Shown here: positions 1 through 12,158 of the stretch, piece by piece
How positions within the stretch are numbered: the stretch's first letter is position 1
Layout: each line of letters starts with the position of its first letter
NCBI GenBank assembly: GCA_017889705.1
Contig: JAGGAB010000042.1
Location: 1 to 64,000, forward strand
Origin: Bacillota bacterium
GTDB lineage: Bacteria > Bacillota > Negativicutes > Sporomusales > Sporomusaceae
Length of the DNA stretch: 64,000 nt
Direction: 5' to 3'
Position numbers and translations under genes: made by a program
Notes under the pieces: generated by a model
The model's database searches: none
Told to the model about the DNA's origin: nothing
Seen by the model: only the letters and a program-made list of their open reading frames with translations

Positions 1-128
1 GATGAAGAGCCAGCACTTGCCGCATGGCCTGTTCCAGATTGTGAAAGCGCTAATCCAAAGACTCCCAGAAAGAATACAGCAGCTATTACAACTGCAACCA
101 TTTTTGCAACTTTTTTGTTTTTAAACAA
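1..128 (-). CDS. Probable OmpH/Skp-like periplasmic protein, N-terminus only (cut by left edge)
   Basis: A minus-strand reading frame opens at a TTG (126-128) preceded by AAGGGG five bases upstream and stays open to the window edge. The 42 visible residues begin MFKNKKVAKMVAVV, then a hydrophobic stretch and a small-residue segment (GHAASAGSS), a classic Sec signal peptide. The position downstream of bamA fits an OmpH/Skp periplasmic chaperone, the usual neighbour in diderm Firmicutes, but no mature-domain sequence is visible, so the identity is inference. An ATG at residue 10 is a weaker alternative start. Confidence 0.55.
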   Translation of the reverse strand, partial: MFKNKKVAKMVAVVIAAVFFLGVFGLALSQSGTGHAASAGSS

Positions 129-211
129 TTTTTCCCCTTCTTTCCGCCACTCGGCAATATAAATTCTCCTCCACTTACCAATTATAACAGGCCCTACCGT
201 ATTCAGCAAGC

Positions 212-361
212 CTACAAATTGGCTATTAGCCTGAGCCAGTTCTCTTTTTCGGTAATAACATACTCAGCGCTCAGGAACTCATGGAGCTTATATCGTACCC
301 CAAACTCATAGTAATCGTTCTTAGGTGTATCTTCCATACGCAGCCCGATGTCCCCAGCCGG
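212..361 (-). pseudogene. Out-of-frame continuation of the preceding gene (49 codons)
   Basis: Reading CCG at 359-361 directly after the GAA codon at 363-365 gives a 49-codon open frame ending at TAG 212-214. It encodes alternating polar and aromatic strands (DIGLRMED, YYEFGVRYKL, FLSAEYVITE, NWLRLIANL) like the last strands of an outer-membrane barrel, and resembles the C-terminus of the MlaD protein in this window. Either the sequence has a one-base insertion error or the gene is mutated. Programmed frameshifting is possible but I see no stimulatory signal. Confidence 0.65.
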
Positions 362-1421
362 GTTCAAATTCCCAGTCTAAATTATCGGGCATAAATTTTA
401 CTTCCAGGAAAATTTCATCCCGGCGGTTTGTAAACTTGCCGACGTGAAGCTTGGTAGTTGTATTATCGTCCTCCCGCCCCATATCAAGACTGCCTTCTAA
501 GACCACCCGGTACTTGGAAGTTTCAGCGTTTATTGTTATTTCGGTGTCAACACCCGGGGTAATCATAGGCGTTAGCTTTAACTCATATTGCTTAGCTACC
601 GGGTGGCTAGCTGCCGCATTTTGTATCTCTGCAGAAAAAAAGGCTTTATGTCGTTCAACAAAGGCTACCGGCAAACCGCGCAACATTTCCGCTGTTTCGC
701 GGACAGGCCGCTTTGCCTCAGCCAGCAGGATATTGGGAATGGTCCTGGAGCGCAGGGAGACCTCCACATTATTAATAATTGGCCCTGTGGGAATAAGCGA
801 AAGTTTGATGCTAGTGTGCTGCCCGGCGGCAATTTCAAGATTGCTGCGAAATTCCGGTAGCTGATTTGCCAGCAGTTCGCGGATAACACTCTTGGATATT
901 CCGCCGGCCCATTCAACTGAGTCTACAGGCAAACCAATAAGGACATCGGCAACCTGCTCTTCAACTTTACCCATATCGTTTTTAATTAATTTTATGACAT
1001 TAGGCGACAAGCCACCCATGTCAATTTCCAGGGAAACATCACGTACCACATCACCCCAGGGTTTTACCACCACAGAGATACCGGTGCTTGTGCCTGACAT
1101 TAAACTAACTTGTTCGACTGTATAGCCGACAAGAACTCTGTTAAATATATCCCTCACAAGATTTTCATATTTATCTCGATTTGTCTCCACATCAACAATG
1201 GTTCGTCCCACCAGCATCTGTTCACTTACAGTCATAATGCTGGCCTTCATTCGTTTGGCAATGCGTTCAGGCGGCGGCTCCACAGCCGAAACATTCACCA
1301 CGATTTTATCCACAGTCTCATCTGCCGCTAAGCCAGTTGCCGTCCCTAAACAAAGCAATACGACCATAATTTGGAGAACTATTAGTAGCTTACGTGGGTA
1401 TTTTCCGCCAATAACGCCCAC
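321..1421 (-). CDS. Periplasmic tandem-repeat protein with beta-barrel-like C-terminus, apparently frameshifted
   Basis: I do not recognise a named family. Residues 1-32 form a signal peptide. Two similar units of about 95 residues follow (near 85-175 and 175-265): each has a beta-rich part (VVVKPWGD.. and LSLIPTGP..), then a helix and a GLPVxxVE motif (IGLPVDSVEW and RGLPVAFVER); a third, partial unit precedes strands ending at residue 353. They resemble POTRA-like alpha/beta modules. The frame ends GHRAAYGRYT, but one base out of register the protein continues 49 residues to a TAG at 212, giving about 402 aa. The apparent extra base is in the GGG at 360-362. The start is a GTG inside its own GGGAGGTG; the true start is uncertain. 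It follows bamA across a hairpin. Confidence 0.75.
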   Translation of the reverse strand: MGVIGGKYPRKLLIVLQIMVVLLCLGTATGLAADETVDKIVVNVSAVEPPPERIAKRMKASIMTVSEQMLVGRTIVDVETNRDKYENLVRDIFNRVLVGYTVEQVSLMSGTSTGISVVVKPWGDVVRDVSLEIDMGGLSPNVIKLIKNDMGKVEEQVADVLIGLPVDSVEWAGGISKSVIRELLANQLPEFRSNLEIAAGQHTSIKLSLIPTGPIINNVEVSLRSRTIPNILLAEAKRPVRETAEMLRGLPVAFVERHKAFFSAEIQNAAASHPVAKQYELKLTPMITPGVDTEITINAETSKYRVVLEGSLDMGREDDNTTTKLHVGKFTNRRDEIFLEVKFMPDNLDWEFEPGWGHRAAYGRYT

Positions 1422-1473: not shown

Positions 1474-3213
1474 TTAGAATTGACCGCCAAAGCTAAAGTG
1501 TGTACGTGCGCCTTCTTCGCCTTTGGCATAATCAATACGCACCGGTCCGATTGGCGTTGTTATCCGAAGACCGACACCAGCACTTGCCTTAAGGTCGTCA
1601 AGCTTGTACCCTTCACCGTTCCAGGCATTACCAATATCAGAGAATACTACACCCTGAATCTGGCTAATAATCGGGAAACGGTATTCAGCAGAAGCAGCAA
1701 GCATTTTTTTGCCTTTGAACTGGTCATCTTCGTAACCACGAAGAGTATCAGAGCCACCGACAGCAAACCTGGCTGCATCTGAAATCTTACCGGTAGCATA
1801 ACCGGCTGTAAGACGAGTAGCAATTACATGGTTAGCATCGATTTTGAAATATTTACGACCTTCAACTGTATATTTGTCGAAATCAAACTCGCCACCTAAG
1901 CCCTTGCCGGCAAACTCGGCTGACAATGAATAACGAACACCCTCAGTCGGCGCATAAACGTTATCGCGTGAGTCAAATACCCGGGTCAAGGTAACGCTAC
2001 GAGTCAAGCCAAAGTTATCTTCGAGATATTGATTATGCTCTGCAGTTCCGTCCAGATAGTTTATATCACCTTCTACATATTCTTCATAAGTGTCTCTGCG
2101 GTTTTTAAAGGTGATGTAATTATGAATATATTCGCCTTCTGGGCGACCCAGAGTAACTTCAAAACCTTTACGGTTTCTATCATAAGTTGTTTTCTCATCA
2201 TCAGTGCCATCATAGTAATCGGTATGCTCATTTGTCAGGTCATAAAAGCTGAAGCTTAGTGAGGTTTGTTTACTGTCAAGCCAGGGACGCGTATAGCTTA
2301 TTTCATAGTTTTTATCACTGGCACCGCCAAATTCCCATTGTAATTTGACTTTGTCACCAGTACCCCGGTAGTTGTTGTCGCCAATCCCGATAATACCTAC
2401 CATACCGTCTGACTTACTATAGCCGCCGCCAATAGTAAAGGTACCGGTTTTTTGTTCAACAACACTGGCTTCCAACACAACAGCATTCGGTTCTTTGCCA
2501 GGATTGAGTTTCATGTTTACATCTTCGAAATAGCCAAGATTGTGGATTTTTTGCATGCTGCGTTTGGCATCCTTTACATTGAAAGGCTCCCCAGGCTTGA
2601 CTTTCATTTCACGGGTAATAACATTGGTTTTGGTTTTTTCATTGCCTTTGACAACAATGTCTTCCAATAACCCCTCATTAATGGTCAAAGTGAGTACCCC
2701 GGCTGGAGTCATAGACACATCACTTACTTTGGCCAAAATATAGCCCTGATCATGATAGTATTGTTCAATTGACCTAACATTACTGTTAAGGGTTCTGGTG
2801 TTTAAAACACCTTCTTTGCCGGTTGTTATCAGCTCTTTAATTTTATCGATAGATACTTTTGTATTGCCTTTAACAATAATGTCGGCTAATTTCGGGTTCT
2901 CCAGAACAGTGTATACTACATTAACACCTTCAGGCACTTCTTGGAAGTTGGCAACAACATCAAAGAAATAACCCAAATCATAGATTGCCTGCATATCTTG
3001 TTTGACTTTATCTGCCGTTAACGTATCACCAGGCATGATTTTCACCACACCTTTAATTGTACTTTCGGCAACCTTATTCATACCGGTTATTGTAATAGCA
3101 GTAACTGTCTTACCTTCCATATCTGCTGCATAAGCAGGCAGAAGCAAACCGGCGGTCATGCTTAGAACAAGCGCGACAACAACAAGCAGTTTGCAGCGTA
3201 GATTGGTATTCAT
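1474..3213 (-). CDS. bamA: BamA, outer-membrane protein assembly factor
   Basis: BamA folds and inserts beta-barrel proteins in the outer membrane. The 579 residues start with a signal peptide (cleavage near AYA-AD, residue 29). Three POTRA domains follow (about 32-108, 109-181, 182-254; each with a G-N-x-K or G-M-N-K start and a LGYF / QGYI segment), then the Omp85 barrel (260-579) with the lid-lock motif as SDTLRGYEDD and a C-terminal Phe (FGGQF). E. coli BamA has five POTRAs; three is a shorter form. GGAGG precedes the ATG. It sits in one run with a sigma factor, tamB and mla genes, the expected outer-membrane biogenesis context. Confidence 0.96.
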   Translation of the reverse strand: MNTNLRCKLLVVVALVLSMTAGLLLPAYAADMEGKTVTAITITGMNKVAESTIKGVVKIMPGDTLTADKVKQDMQAIYDLGYFFDVVANFQEVPEGVNVVYTVLENPKLADIIVKGNTKVSIDKIKELITTGKEGVLNTRTLNSNVRSIEQYYHDQGYILAKVSDVSMTPAGVLTLTINEGLLEDIVVKGNEKTKTNVITREMKVKPGEPFNVKDAKRSMQKIHNLGYFEDVNMKLNPGKEPNAVVLEASVVEQKTGTFTIGGGYSKSDGMVGIIGIGDNNYRGTGDKVKLQWEFGGASDKNYEISYTRPWLDSKQTSLSFSFYDLTNEHTDYYDGTDDEKTTYDRNRKGFEVTLGRPEGEYIHNYITFKNRRDTYEEYVEGDINYLDGTAEHNQYLEDNFGLTRSVTLTRVFDSRDNVYAPTEGVRYSLSAEFAGKGLGGEFDFDKYTVEGRKYFKIDANHVIATRLTAGYATGKISDAARFAVGGSDTLRGYEDDQFKGKKMLAASAEYRFPIISQIQGVVFSDIGNAWNGEGYKLDDLKASAGVGLRITTPIGPVRIDYAKGEEGARTHFSFGGQF

Positions 3214-3231: not shown

Positions 3232-3813
3232 TTATTGACCTCGCAATGATTGTCCGGCTGTGCGAACAAGTTTATTAATCTCATCGGCAGTCAGCGGAAC
3301 TTCACTACTTTGGCCGACATCAGCAGCGGATTTTTTTTGCTTAGTTGATGCCGGAGCCTCATAGGCCGGGGTTACAGTCTGCTGATATACAGCAGGCTCA
3401 ACCTGATTCATCACAGGCTGTCCAGCGGCCGGTGCAGCCGCAGGCAGCGCAGAAGATACAGGCTTAGGAGCAATTGTATCCTGACTTGCTTTCTCAGCAG
3501 AAACTGACTGCTGCTTTTCTGGTATTGGCTGAGCCTGTTGGCGGTTAATCCCCCACCAATAACTGGCGCCGACTCCCACAACAGCTACCGTCACAGCCAA
3601 ACAAAAAGCTATACCATGCTGCAACACAGGGTATTTGTAGCGCCATTGCCGGGAGCGGCTAGCTTCCCTGGCATGGGTGAGCTCAGCCTGAGCTAAAAAC
3701 AAATTAAGCTCGCCGCGAACATCTTTGTCTTTGCCAAAGGCTTGTTCTGCCTCGGAAAGCCATTGCTGCGCTGAGTTCAAATGTCGGTTAACATTTCTTT
3801 TACACTCTGCCAC
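3232..3813 (-). CDS. Single-TM protein with proline/alanine-rich extracytoplasmic region, unknown function
   Basis: I do not recognise this protein. From the GTG at 3811-3813 (with AGGGGTGG just upstream) it has a charged N-terminal helical domain of about 60 residues (RHLNSAQQWLSEAEQAFG, GELNLFLAQAELTHARE), one membrane helix (about residues 70-93) and a long Pro/Ala/Gln-rich tail ending in a short conserved-looking helix (LTADEINKLVRTAGQSLRG). A longer frame to 3879 exists but has no ribosome site. It lies 18 bp upstream of bamA and is probably co-transcribed with it, so an accessory role in outer-membrane assembly or envelope spanning is possible but unproven. Confidence 0.75.
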   Translation of the reverse strand: MAECKRNVNRHLNSAQQWLSEAEQAFGKDKDVRGELNLFLAQAELTHAREASRSRQWRYKYPVLQHGIAFCLAVTVAVVGVGASYWWGINRQQAQPIPEKQQSVSAEKASQDTIAPKPVSSALPAAAPAAGQPVMNQVEPAVYQQTVTPAYEAPASTKQKKSAADVGQSSEVPLTADEINKLVRTAGQSLRGQ

Positions 3814-3879
3814 ATTCACCACCCCTATTATAACACTATTTATATTCCTGTGAAGAGGCCAGATTCTGGTCATTAACAA

Positions 3880-4029
3880 AACGTCAAAAACAGCCGAAAT
3901 TTAAATTTATGTCGGTATTAATCAATATTCCATACACTTTTGACGTATTTGCTATGTTTTTTCAAAAAGCATGTTACTATAAGCAGCAACCCATCATGAT
4001 TATACCATCTCTCGACGTGTTTAACAAAA
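3880..4029. other. Intergenic stretch without a gene
   Basis: AT-rich sequence between the one-TM protein gene and the MITE-like repeat. Any promoter for the bamA-containing group would be expected here, but I could not pick convincing -35/-10 boxes. The short plus-strand frame running through it has no ribosome site or protein-like composition. Confidence 0.5.
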
Positions 4030-4240
4030 CACGCTACCTTAAACTCCCGCGAGGAGTTCAAAATGTCCAGATGCTAGGCGCACCGGAGAAACGAGCAGCG
4101 CCGCGTACTTGCGTACGCAAGCAAACGTTTCGAGGAGCAACGATACCGTCGCCTATGAGACTTCTATCCGCCGATAGGTTGGCAGCATGTTTATTATAAC
4201 AGCATCGCACAGGTGGGCGTTTTCAACTCCTCACGCTACC
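4030..4240. mobile_element. MITE-like repeat with imperfect terminal inverted repeats and a 9-bp flanking direct repeat
   Basis: The arms GAGGAGTTCAAAATGTCCA (from 4050) and, on the other strand, GAGGAGTTGAAAACGCCCA (to 4233) form an imperfect terminal inverted repeat. CACGCTACC occurs at 4030-4038 and again at 4232-4240, like a target-site duplication; the right copy includes the TAG stop of the sigma factor gene. A further hairpin AACTCC-CGCGA-GGAGTT lies at the left end. The interior carries no gene. The sequence is like a short repeat seen between genes in other Firmicutes, but only this copy is in the window. Confidence 0.55.
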
Positions 4241-4874
4241 AGTTGCCCATCAACTTGGACATCATCCCCCGCAACCGCCGTATCCCCTGTTTTTGCAAAC
4301 GATAGATATGTGATAGGCTCACTTCCATGGCATCGGCCAGTTCTTTAGGTTGACAGTCATCAAGGAATACCCCTTGGAGCACTTGCTGCTCTTTGGCCGG
4401 CAAACGATTCAAGGCCGTTTTTAGCTGCTCAACAAGATAGTTTTGTTCAGCCTGAGTTGCTACCTCGGCCTGCGCATCAATTAATAAATCGGCAATGGTC
4501 GCCTGTCCTGCGCCTTGTGTTAACGGGCTGTCAATATGCAGCAAACTACCATCGTCACACTTCAGATGATTAATAATCCGCCCTTTGATGCGATGCACAG
4601 CAAACAGACTGAAAGCAACTCCCCTGGTATAATCATAATTCTCAACTGCTTCAATCAGTCCAACGGTTCCTTCCTGAATGCAGTCCAGCATTGTGGTTTC
4701 AGGAAGATGCCAGCGCATAGCTGTCTTAAAGACCAACGGCTGGTAGCTTTCGATAAGGCAGCGACGGCTTTCCAAATTGCCGTCCGCCTTGTAACTCTGC
4801 CACAGGCGGCGTTCCTCTTCCGGCAGCAAAATCCGTATATGTTTTAGTTCTGCCATATACTGACTGAGAATCAT
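4236..4874 (-). CDS. Sigma-70 family RNA polymerase sigma factor
   Basis: A compact 212-residue sigma factor. Region 2 (about 40-105) contains LVFKTAMRWHLPE, DCIQEGTVGLIEAVENYDY and RGVAFSLFAVHRIKGRI, matching the sigma-70 core- and -10-binding helices. Region 4 (about 160-210) carries LPAKEQQVLQGVFLDD and a helix-turn-helix (QPKELADAMEVSLSHIYRL). Region 1.1 is absent. I prefer the ATG at 4874, spaced five bases from AGGATGG; an ATG at 4883 abuts that ribosome site. It starts 15 bp after tamB ends and is followed by the one-TM protein and bamA, so it may steer envelope genes, but its regulon cannot be read here. Confidence 0.9.
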   Translation of the reverse strand: MILSQYMAELKHIRILLPEEERRLWQSYKADGNLESRRCLIESYQPLVFKTAMRWHLPETTMLDCIQEGTVGLIEAVENYDYTRGVAFSLFAVHRIKGRIINHLKCDDGSLLHIDSPLTQGAGQATIADLLIDAQAEVATQAEQNYLVEQLKTALNRLPAKEQQVLQGVFLDDCQPKELADAMEVSLSHIYRLQKQGIRRLRGMMSKLMGNW

Positions 4875-4889
4875 GGTATCCATCCTTAC

Positions 4890-10886: not shown

Positions 10887-12158
10887 TTAGAATGAACGCT
10901 TTATGCCATAATAGGAAGCTCTTTCATCATGCTTGTTAATATTATCGGTCTGGGTTATTAAAAAAGTATCTGGTGCCAGTTGATACTGGGTACGCAGTTT
11001 AACCCGGACATCATTAGGATCATAGGCATCAAGCGACAAGCGCAACTCTTTGCCCAGTTTAGTATCTAAGCCAACACCAACTTTATTGTCGATAATGCCC
11101 AAACGCTGGTTCATGGCCGGACCACTTTTTCCCATTTGCAGGTTGAGTTTATTATCTTCACCGATTTCGCTGACGCCAACAACCGCAAAATCACTGGGTG
11201 AAGTGCTAATGGTAATATTGGCATTGCTCATATATTTTTGATTATCCGGATCATATAGCGCATCAATACTAGCCTCGGTTTTAATGTTTGCAACCTTATC
11301 TAGCATTTTGTTGGCCTTGGCTGATGCATCACGGGCATTTCGCAGTGTTTCTTTAAGATTTTTGGAGGTCTCAGGATCTGTAACAACCCCCTCTAATGCG
11401 GCTGCCATCTTTTCAACCCGATAGCTGGTTTGCTTAATGGCCTGGATAGTCTCTCTCAGGTCTCTGGCAGTCTGCCCATTGTTGTCAACATCAGCAATCA
11501 TGCCGTTCACTCGGGCAGCTGTATTGTTGAGGCTTACTGACATGGATTTTAGGTTGCTAACCATTGAAGTTACATCACCATGGCTTGCATCAGCCAGCAT
11601 GGCCAGTGTAGTTGTGAGCCGATTTAAGTTTTCAGTTATATCCCGTGTATTTAACGCAGCTTCCTTAAGAGCTGCGCGGACTTTTTCATCGCCCATTACA
11701 TCGTTAAATGCCTGCATTAATGTCTTTACTTCAGCAAGTACCTCATTAGCAGCTACCATGAGTTCATCCATGCCCTGCGGATTATCGCCGTAAACTTTGT
11801 CATGCGGAGCTAAAAAACCTTGGACGTCCCGGGGCGGCGAAACGTTAATAAACTTTTCCCCTAGCAGCCCGTCTGATCCGATAACAAATTTTGAACCTAC
11901 CGGAATCTTCACGCCCGGTTTGAGCAAAATATCGGCCACAACACCATCATTCACTATCCGCACATCGGCAACCTTGCCAACATCAACGCCTGCATAACGA
12001 ACAACATTGCCAGGCTTCAGCCCGCTTACCTGTCCAAACACGGCCTGGAGCGGATATCCTTTATCACCTAGTGTTATATCACTTAAAAAAACAATCATCC
12101 CCGCAAGTAAAGCAAGCCCAGCCAGCGTTATGGCACCTACTTTTGCTTCTGTATTCAT
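10887..12158 (-). CDS. mlaD: MlaD-like MCE-domain protein with coiled-coil and barrel-like C-terminus
   Basis: MCE proteins bind lipids for Mla-type phospholipid transport between membranes. After one membrane anchor (about 8-27) the MCE domain runs from about 38 to 115 ([36 protein letters not shown]). Residues 120-290 are long amphipathic helices, and 320-423 are alternating beta strands ([20 protein letters not shown]) ending in [10 protein letters not shown], like an outer-membrane barrel terminus. At 423 residues it is more than twice E. coli MlaD. The same architecture, an inner-membrane MCE protein with its own outer-membrane barrel, has been reported for Veillonella parvula. Its ATG overlaps the mlaF stop by four bases. 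Confidence 0.93.

Follow-up and report, generated by a model that had tools for sequence, protein, structure and literature searches.

What is encoded by the gene directly downstream of bamA in Sporomusa, and to which other parts of the cell envelope is its product linked? The gene, which we call U, lies near the start of a window of 64,000 nucleotides at the beginning of a contig (C83) of a Sporomusa genome (G000). Diderm Firmicutes are reported to be without BamB-E, and Negativicutes without a recognisable Lol system (PMC5007114). A widely conserved protein encoded after bamA would supply a missing part of the picture of how diderm Firmicutes assemble and monitor their outer membrane. Published maps already show the cluster with its hypothetical genes (PMC5007114), and a search of the literature outside subscription journals returned no paper on U, on its fold or on its link with two upstream genes, here called TMP and SIG. 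In the model species V. parvula, skp genes stand directly after bamA (PMC5491611); therefore, U would have been missed there. The features around U in the window are as follows.

3-209, minus strand: ompH/skp-like gene, running off the window and continuing into contig C29 via a 99-nt overlap
212-1421, minus strand: full extent of gene U (unnamed family), interrupted in this copy
321-1421, minus strand: U open reading frame in its present form (366 aa, GTG start), the last ~8 residues out of frame
1326-1421, minus strand: approximate U signal peptide, from sequence features (basic start, hydrophobic core, AxA-like end)
1474-3213, minus strand: bamA, the single Omp85 gene of the genome (PF01103 2e-52, POTRA 3.3e-36)
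3232-3879, minus strand: TMP, a single-pass membrane protein with an N-terminal domain, a transmembrane segment, a Pro/Ala-rich linker and the conserved tail LTADEINKLVRTAGQSLRGQ
4236-4883, minus strand: SIG, a sigma-70 family factor with regions 2 and 4 (PF04542 4.6e-15, PF04545 1.5e-9)
10887-12158, minus strand: MlaD (MCE domain PF02470, 1.2e-18)

Upstream of bamA, TMP and SIG are accompanied by TamB (5.7e-53), TolC and MlaD, the last with a C-terminus rich in strands, similar to the 10-strand barrel that MlaD of V. parvula is reported to have (PMC10665443). In Sporomusa malonica, the orthologue of the ompH/skp-like gene (L036:11291-11842) matches PF03938 (3.2e-17), and the same cluster also encodes a YjbH-like protein (L036:14701-15333, PF06082 3e-14) downstream of its ompH genes.

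The U reading frame lies 53 nt after bamA on the same strand. Its place downstream of bamA and its signal peptide had been noted in a preliminary description of this DNA. That description could place the protein in no named family, and our searches agree: the window protein matched no Pfam or NCBIfam family, 29 diverse members of the family gave only a weak TamB signal against Pfam (in 3 of the 29), and no solved structure related by sequence was found. The GLPV motifs that it had pointed out are present as GLPVDSVEW and GLPVAFVERH. Orthologues were found in 56 of 60 relatives of this genome, with E-values of 1e-178 to 1e-50, and their intact frames are mostly 430-450 aa long. Judged from the sequences, this conservation is far beyond chance, and U is a real protein of an unnamed conserved family.

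The fold was modelled with AlphaFold2 from the intact orthologue of Sporomusa sp. KB1 and a 53-sequence alignment (mean pLDDT 89.5). The model contains three beta-alpha-alpha-beta-beta modules (mature residues 7-89, 96-179 and 186-268), followed by ten barrel strands (mature residues 272-400). The window's own three modules, folded alone, were predicted to form the same modules (pLDDT 86.8) and are located as follows, each assigned from this model and from homology among the modules.

1059-1307, minus strand: POTRA-like module 1 (beta-alpha-alpha-beta-beta)
789-1040, minus strand: POTRA-like module 2, with GLPVDSVEW
522-770, minus strand: POTRA-like module 3, with GLPVAFVERH

In hhalign comparisons, the three modules proved homologous to one another (P 94-97%). 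Two similar alpha/beta units had been described previously; repeats are indeed present, but the models and hhalign rule out two units and give three. In Foldseek searches, the top matches of the whole U model were BamA (3.7e-11) and TamA (5.8e-10), with Toc75 and CdiB also found, while the modules alone matched best to POTRA1-3 of Anabaena Omp85 (1.9e-7). In VIA-align, the modules reached Z scores of 8.4 to Toc75 and 7.6 to BamA with a large overall rmsd (~13 Å), which is expected if the hinge angles differ. These predictions place POTRA domains in U at the level of fold only. The best structural match of the barrel is OpcA (Z 13.4, rmsd 2.8, 130 aligned residues), followed by a designed 10-strand transmembrane barrel (Z 12.9) and KdgM (Z 11.5); soluble 10-strand nitrobindins come behind these three, with Z ~10. 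Hallmarks of outer-membrane barrels are found in the even number of strands (10), in amphipathic strands with a D/E/K/R share of 7% on a hydrophobic face and 43% on a polar face, and in a hydrophobic or aromatic last residue, which is L or F in 52 of 53 sequences. All ten invariant barrel residues are on the polar face, as expected if this face lines the inside of a membrane barrel. The conservation of the two faces, used as a test of membrane against soluble barrels, showed no difference in mean entropy, and the short turns on both sides together with the good nitrobindin matches make a soluble barrel possible. The POTRA-like repeats and terminal barrel anticipated in the preliminary description are thus both present in the predicted structures, and this architecture is well supported by the models; we infer that U sits in the outer membrane.

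In the window, the barrel is interrupted. The reading frame ends at the stop at 321 with RAAYGRYT, which is unlike the end of any orthologue. This odd end had been recognised previously, as 12 residues unlike the rest, and had been attributed to a one-base frameshift at 360-362. DNA alignment rules out this explanation: the window copy is without exactly 92 nt in comparison with each of the five Sporomusa orthologues checked (L033, L034, L035, L036 and L037), an out-of-frame deletion after which the reading frame runs into the stop at 321. About 31 barrel residues, which form strands 5-6 and the beginning of strand 7, are gone, and the parts are arranged as follows.

346-512, minus strand: barrel strands 1-4 of 10, retained (intact orthologue's model mapped on the window)
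336-350, minus strand: junction of the 92-nt loss relative to the five orthologues, exact base ambiguous
212-340, minus strand: 3' remnant in the other frame, from the end of strand 7 to strand 10, with the orthologous stop TAG

The second frame, which runs to the TAG at 212-214, carries the conserved C-terminus of the family, ...EFGVRYKLHEFLSAEYVITEKENWLRLIANL, where the orthologues end in ...GLRYKLHEFLSAEYVxTxxxWLRLxxNL. Since all orthologues in the homologue search share this C-terminal stretch and run on to 212 instead of 321, the true end of U is the TAG at 212-214, as had been suspected. The 402-residue joined protein proposed earlier corresponds to a joined frame of 402 codons, but it is shorter than the intact orthologous frames of ~430-450 aa because the ~31 further residues are missing.

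The 3' remnant is nearly identical to the orthologues at the protein level, suggesting that the loss is recent or artificial. Contig C83 begins ~350 nt away from the junction, and its opening 99 nt (window 1-99) recur unchanged as the final 99 nt of contig C29 (4933 nt), an assembly-graph overlap inside the ompH gene. The position of the junction near a contig end that overlaps with C29 makes an assembly error, with the gene intact in the organism, about as probable as a real deletion, and we hold the two evenly balanced. An error would agree with the high conservation that both sides of the junction retain in their frames and with the single U locus of this genome; a recent real deletion, however, would give the same picture, and profile searches of the assembly, which show one locus, found neither a second nor an undamaged copy. 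Interruption of U is not confined to this genome, at least among assemblies: in a Selenomonas MAG of the same class (L089), the copy is divided into pieces of 79 and 288 aa. If the deletion is no assembly error, U would be truncated inside its barrel in this genome.

We examined the distribution of U in two samples. Among 300 sampled genomes of the class Negativicutes, U is present in 237 and missing from 63, including whole genera, and is therefore dispensable for an outer membrane. In a sample of 299 genomes of the phylum, 17 have U, nine of them outside the class. All 17 also encode Omp85, and 60 of the 77 Omp85-bearing genomes in this sample are without U. By sequence search, U is present in several other Omp85-encoding lineages of Bacillota. 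In all 69 loci it is the next gene downstream of bamA, in the same orientation (median gap 34 nt), and is itself followed by ompH. The gene order with U is TamB-SIG-TMP-BamA-U-OmpH; the usual order without U is TamB-BamA-OmpH. In the two genomes with SIG and TMP and no U hit (L144 and L154), searches at high sensitivity found no diverged U, and ompH follows bamA directly.

U co-occurs with TMP, whose product matched no Pfam family and no recognised anti-sigma domain. The N-terminal domain is short, conserved and helical, and the Pro/Ala-rich linker is variable; beyond the N-terminal domain, the transmembrane segment and the linker, conservation is confined to the last ~17 residues. This tail reads DEMQKLVRAAGKSLRGQ in Negativicutes and DEEALTKEASHSLRNGK, DLDMLVDLATKVLY or DLRELTRLAQEVLY outside the class. 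At a threshold of E <1e-20, TMP is present in 17/17 genomes with U versus 2/282 without U in the phylum sample, although shared ancestry and the gain and loss of whole operons inflate such co-occurrence counts and leave few effective independent events. All 77 TMPs from genomes with U retain the tail (71 by a strict pattern and six by eye, which differ only at the acidic position), and none of the 16 TMPs from loci without U has it at the C-terminus; three of these 16, from one genus (L209-L211), match a loose tail pattern at an internal, non-terminal position. The pattern itself arises in 3.5% of shuffled tails. The periplasmic part of TMP has a median of 106 residues where U is present versus 58 where it is not, and TMPs without U have mostly lost the linker too.

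Three lineages encode TMP without U: G071, G273 and a set of 13 genomes from the class that includes G206. Of 29 genomes in the class to which G273 belongs, U occurs in nine, always together with TMP; G273 itself encodes TMP and no U, and in one more genome TMP is a fragment containing runs of N. The 13 genomes from the G206 class encode SIG and TMP with no U found, where contig or region ends cut the view for U in L206, L207 and L212. On these sequences, U and the TMP tail appear to be absent together in at least three lineages. All three genes are jointly absent from several Negativicutes and from most other Omp85-bearing lineages.

SIG is encoded upstream of TMP in every locus with enough sequence to show it, and U occurs only where SIG and TMP are encoded upstream of bamA. 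A loss of SIG suspected in one family (f110; G206 and G614) was ruled out: SIG, adjoining TamB, lies ~3 and 15 kb further up, with other genes between it and TMP. The persistence of SIG and TMP without U indicates that their core function does not depend on U, and the retention of SIG beside TMP where U is gone suggests that the two form a core pair to which U and the tail were added as an outer-membrane arm. In the window, SIG and TMP are separated by ~350 nt (3880-4235) with a GC-richer, repeat-like segment (~4060-4200: gcgcaccggagaaacgagcagcgccgcgtacttgcgtacgcaagc...), possibly a dispersed repeat of the genus; an open reading frame on the plus strand at 3909-4199 is spurious.

We propose that U is an outer-membrane protein whose modules dock the tail of TMP, so that U and TMP link the outer membrane to SIG, a proposal to which we give an even chance. 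U, made from the bamA operon, would consist of a signal peptide, a periplasmic part of three POTRA-like modules and a 10-strand C-terminal barrel. The C-terminal tail of TMP, anchored in the inner membrane, would dock on the periplasmic modules of U, and the cytoplasmic N-terminal domain of TMP would be functionally paired with the adjacent SIG. The U-TMP connection would then couple the outer membrane, at the site of BamA assembly, to SIG, and the cytoplasm would sense when U is lost or misfolded or when the assembly of the outer membrane is disturbed. A short conserved peptide that ends a long variable linker, and is present only where U is present, looks like a docking segment, and the simplest account of it is that the tail binds the modules of U; co-occurrence thus points to docking. 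With a SIG-TMP core pair and U as an added arm, it is a reasonable hypothesis that signals pass from the outer membrane to the sigma factor. Control of SIG by U and TMP is likewise hypothetical; the two might tether the membranes or report the state of the outer membrane to SIG. The earlier suggestion that U is a second periplasm-spanning protein is not supported. U carries a signal peptide and three modules, and an anchor in the inner membrane is missing; should any structure cross the periplasm, co-occurrence favours U in combination with TMP (3232-3879).

Two other roles for U have to be weighed against this proposal. The position after bamA in 69 of 69 loci, the POTRA-like modules and the reported absence of BamBCDE from diderm Firmicutes (PMC5007114) are what would be seen if U were a structural or assembly accessory of BamA that replaces the missing BamB-E lipoproteins, with TMP serving only to fix U to the inner membrane and SIG as an unrelated neighbour or operon regulator. 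We consider this role rather unlikely because BamA is independent of U in the 60 of 77 Omp85-bearing genomes that have bamA alone, and because U follows the TMP tail more closely than it follows BamA. Less probable still is a non-signalling role in which U and TMP, next to TamB and MlaD, bridge the inner and outer membranes to transport lipid or lipopolysaccharide. The cluster does contain TamB, TolC and an MlaD with a terminal barrel (PMC10665443), and the last 56 residues of U, corresponding to its last five strands, resemble the C-terminus of TamB (hhalign P 77%, E 2e-5). However, no hydrophobic groove, MCE domain or AsmA-like repeat was recognised in U, the TMP linker is variable and rich in Pro/Ala, and the constant presence of SIG would be left unexplained. 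The docking proposal makes it testable what docks on the neighbour of BamA from the inner membrane and whether diderm Firmicutes have an outer-membrane stress response.

U resembles the Omp85 superfamily (BamA, TamA and Toc75) in outline, with a signal peptide, tandem modules of POTRA fold and a C-terminal barrel of outer-membrane type, without being a member. The Omp85 barrel has 16 strands, whereas that of U has 10 in the model of the intact orthologue. Among the 29 diverse U members, PF01103 and related Omp85 models gave no match at E up to 10, and neither did the Pfam POTRA families PF07244, PF08478 and PF08479. The VRG[FY] motif of barrel loop 6 is present in 0/69 U proteins versus 113/116 BamA proteins from the same loci, and hhalign gave P <1% between U modules and BamA POTRAs, which match each other at 97-99%. 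Membership in Omp85 is ruled out by the strand number and by the absence of PF01103 and VRG[FY]. A POTRA-like tandem on a 10-strand barrel bears on the origin of the Omp85 architecture.

MlaD of Negativicutes shares with U the same cluster, a reported 10-strand terminal barrel and a proposed trans-envelope role (PMC10665443), but it has an MCE domain, an inner-membrane anchor and a long helix, none of which is found in U, which has POTRA-like modules instead; PF02470 matched neither the window U nor the 29 members. The C-terminal domain of TamB (PF04357) has a weak profile likeness to U over the last five strands and matched three of the 29 members weakly (best E 2.3e-4), whereas most members have no such match, and TamB has AsmA-like repeats that U does not. 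This likeness of the C-terminus of U to TamB is suggestive only.

Signalling from the envelope to a sigma factor is known from FecA-FecR-FecI and RseA-sigmaE. It is conceivable, though we would not favour it, that U, TMP and SIG form a new trans-envelope chain of diderm Bacillota, in which U would be a miniature Omp85-like sensor in the outer membrane, TMP would couple it to SIG by its docking tail, and SIG would be dedicated to monitoring BamA-dependent assembly of the outer membrane. The set differs from the known systems in having no TonB-dependent receptor and no FecR or RseA domain; SIG has sigma regions 2 and 4, whereas no anti-sigma domain is recognised in TMP. Under this hypothesis, it would share with them an outer-membrane protein, a single-pass inner-membrane protein and a sigma factor that are encoded together, and the tail of TMP may, by analogy, correspond to the periplasmic C-terminal recognition segment of the FecR/RseA type.
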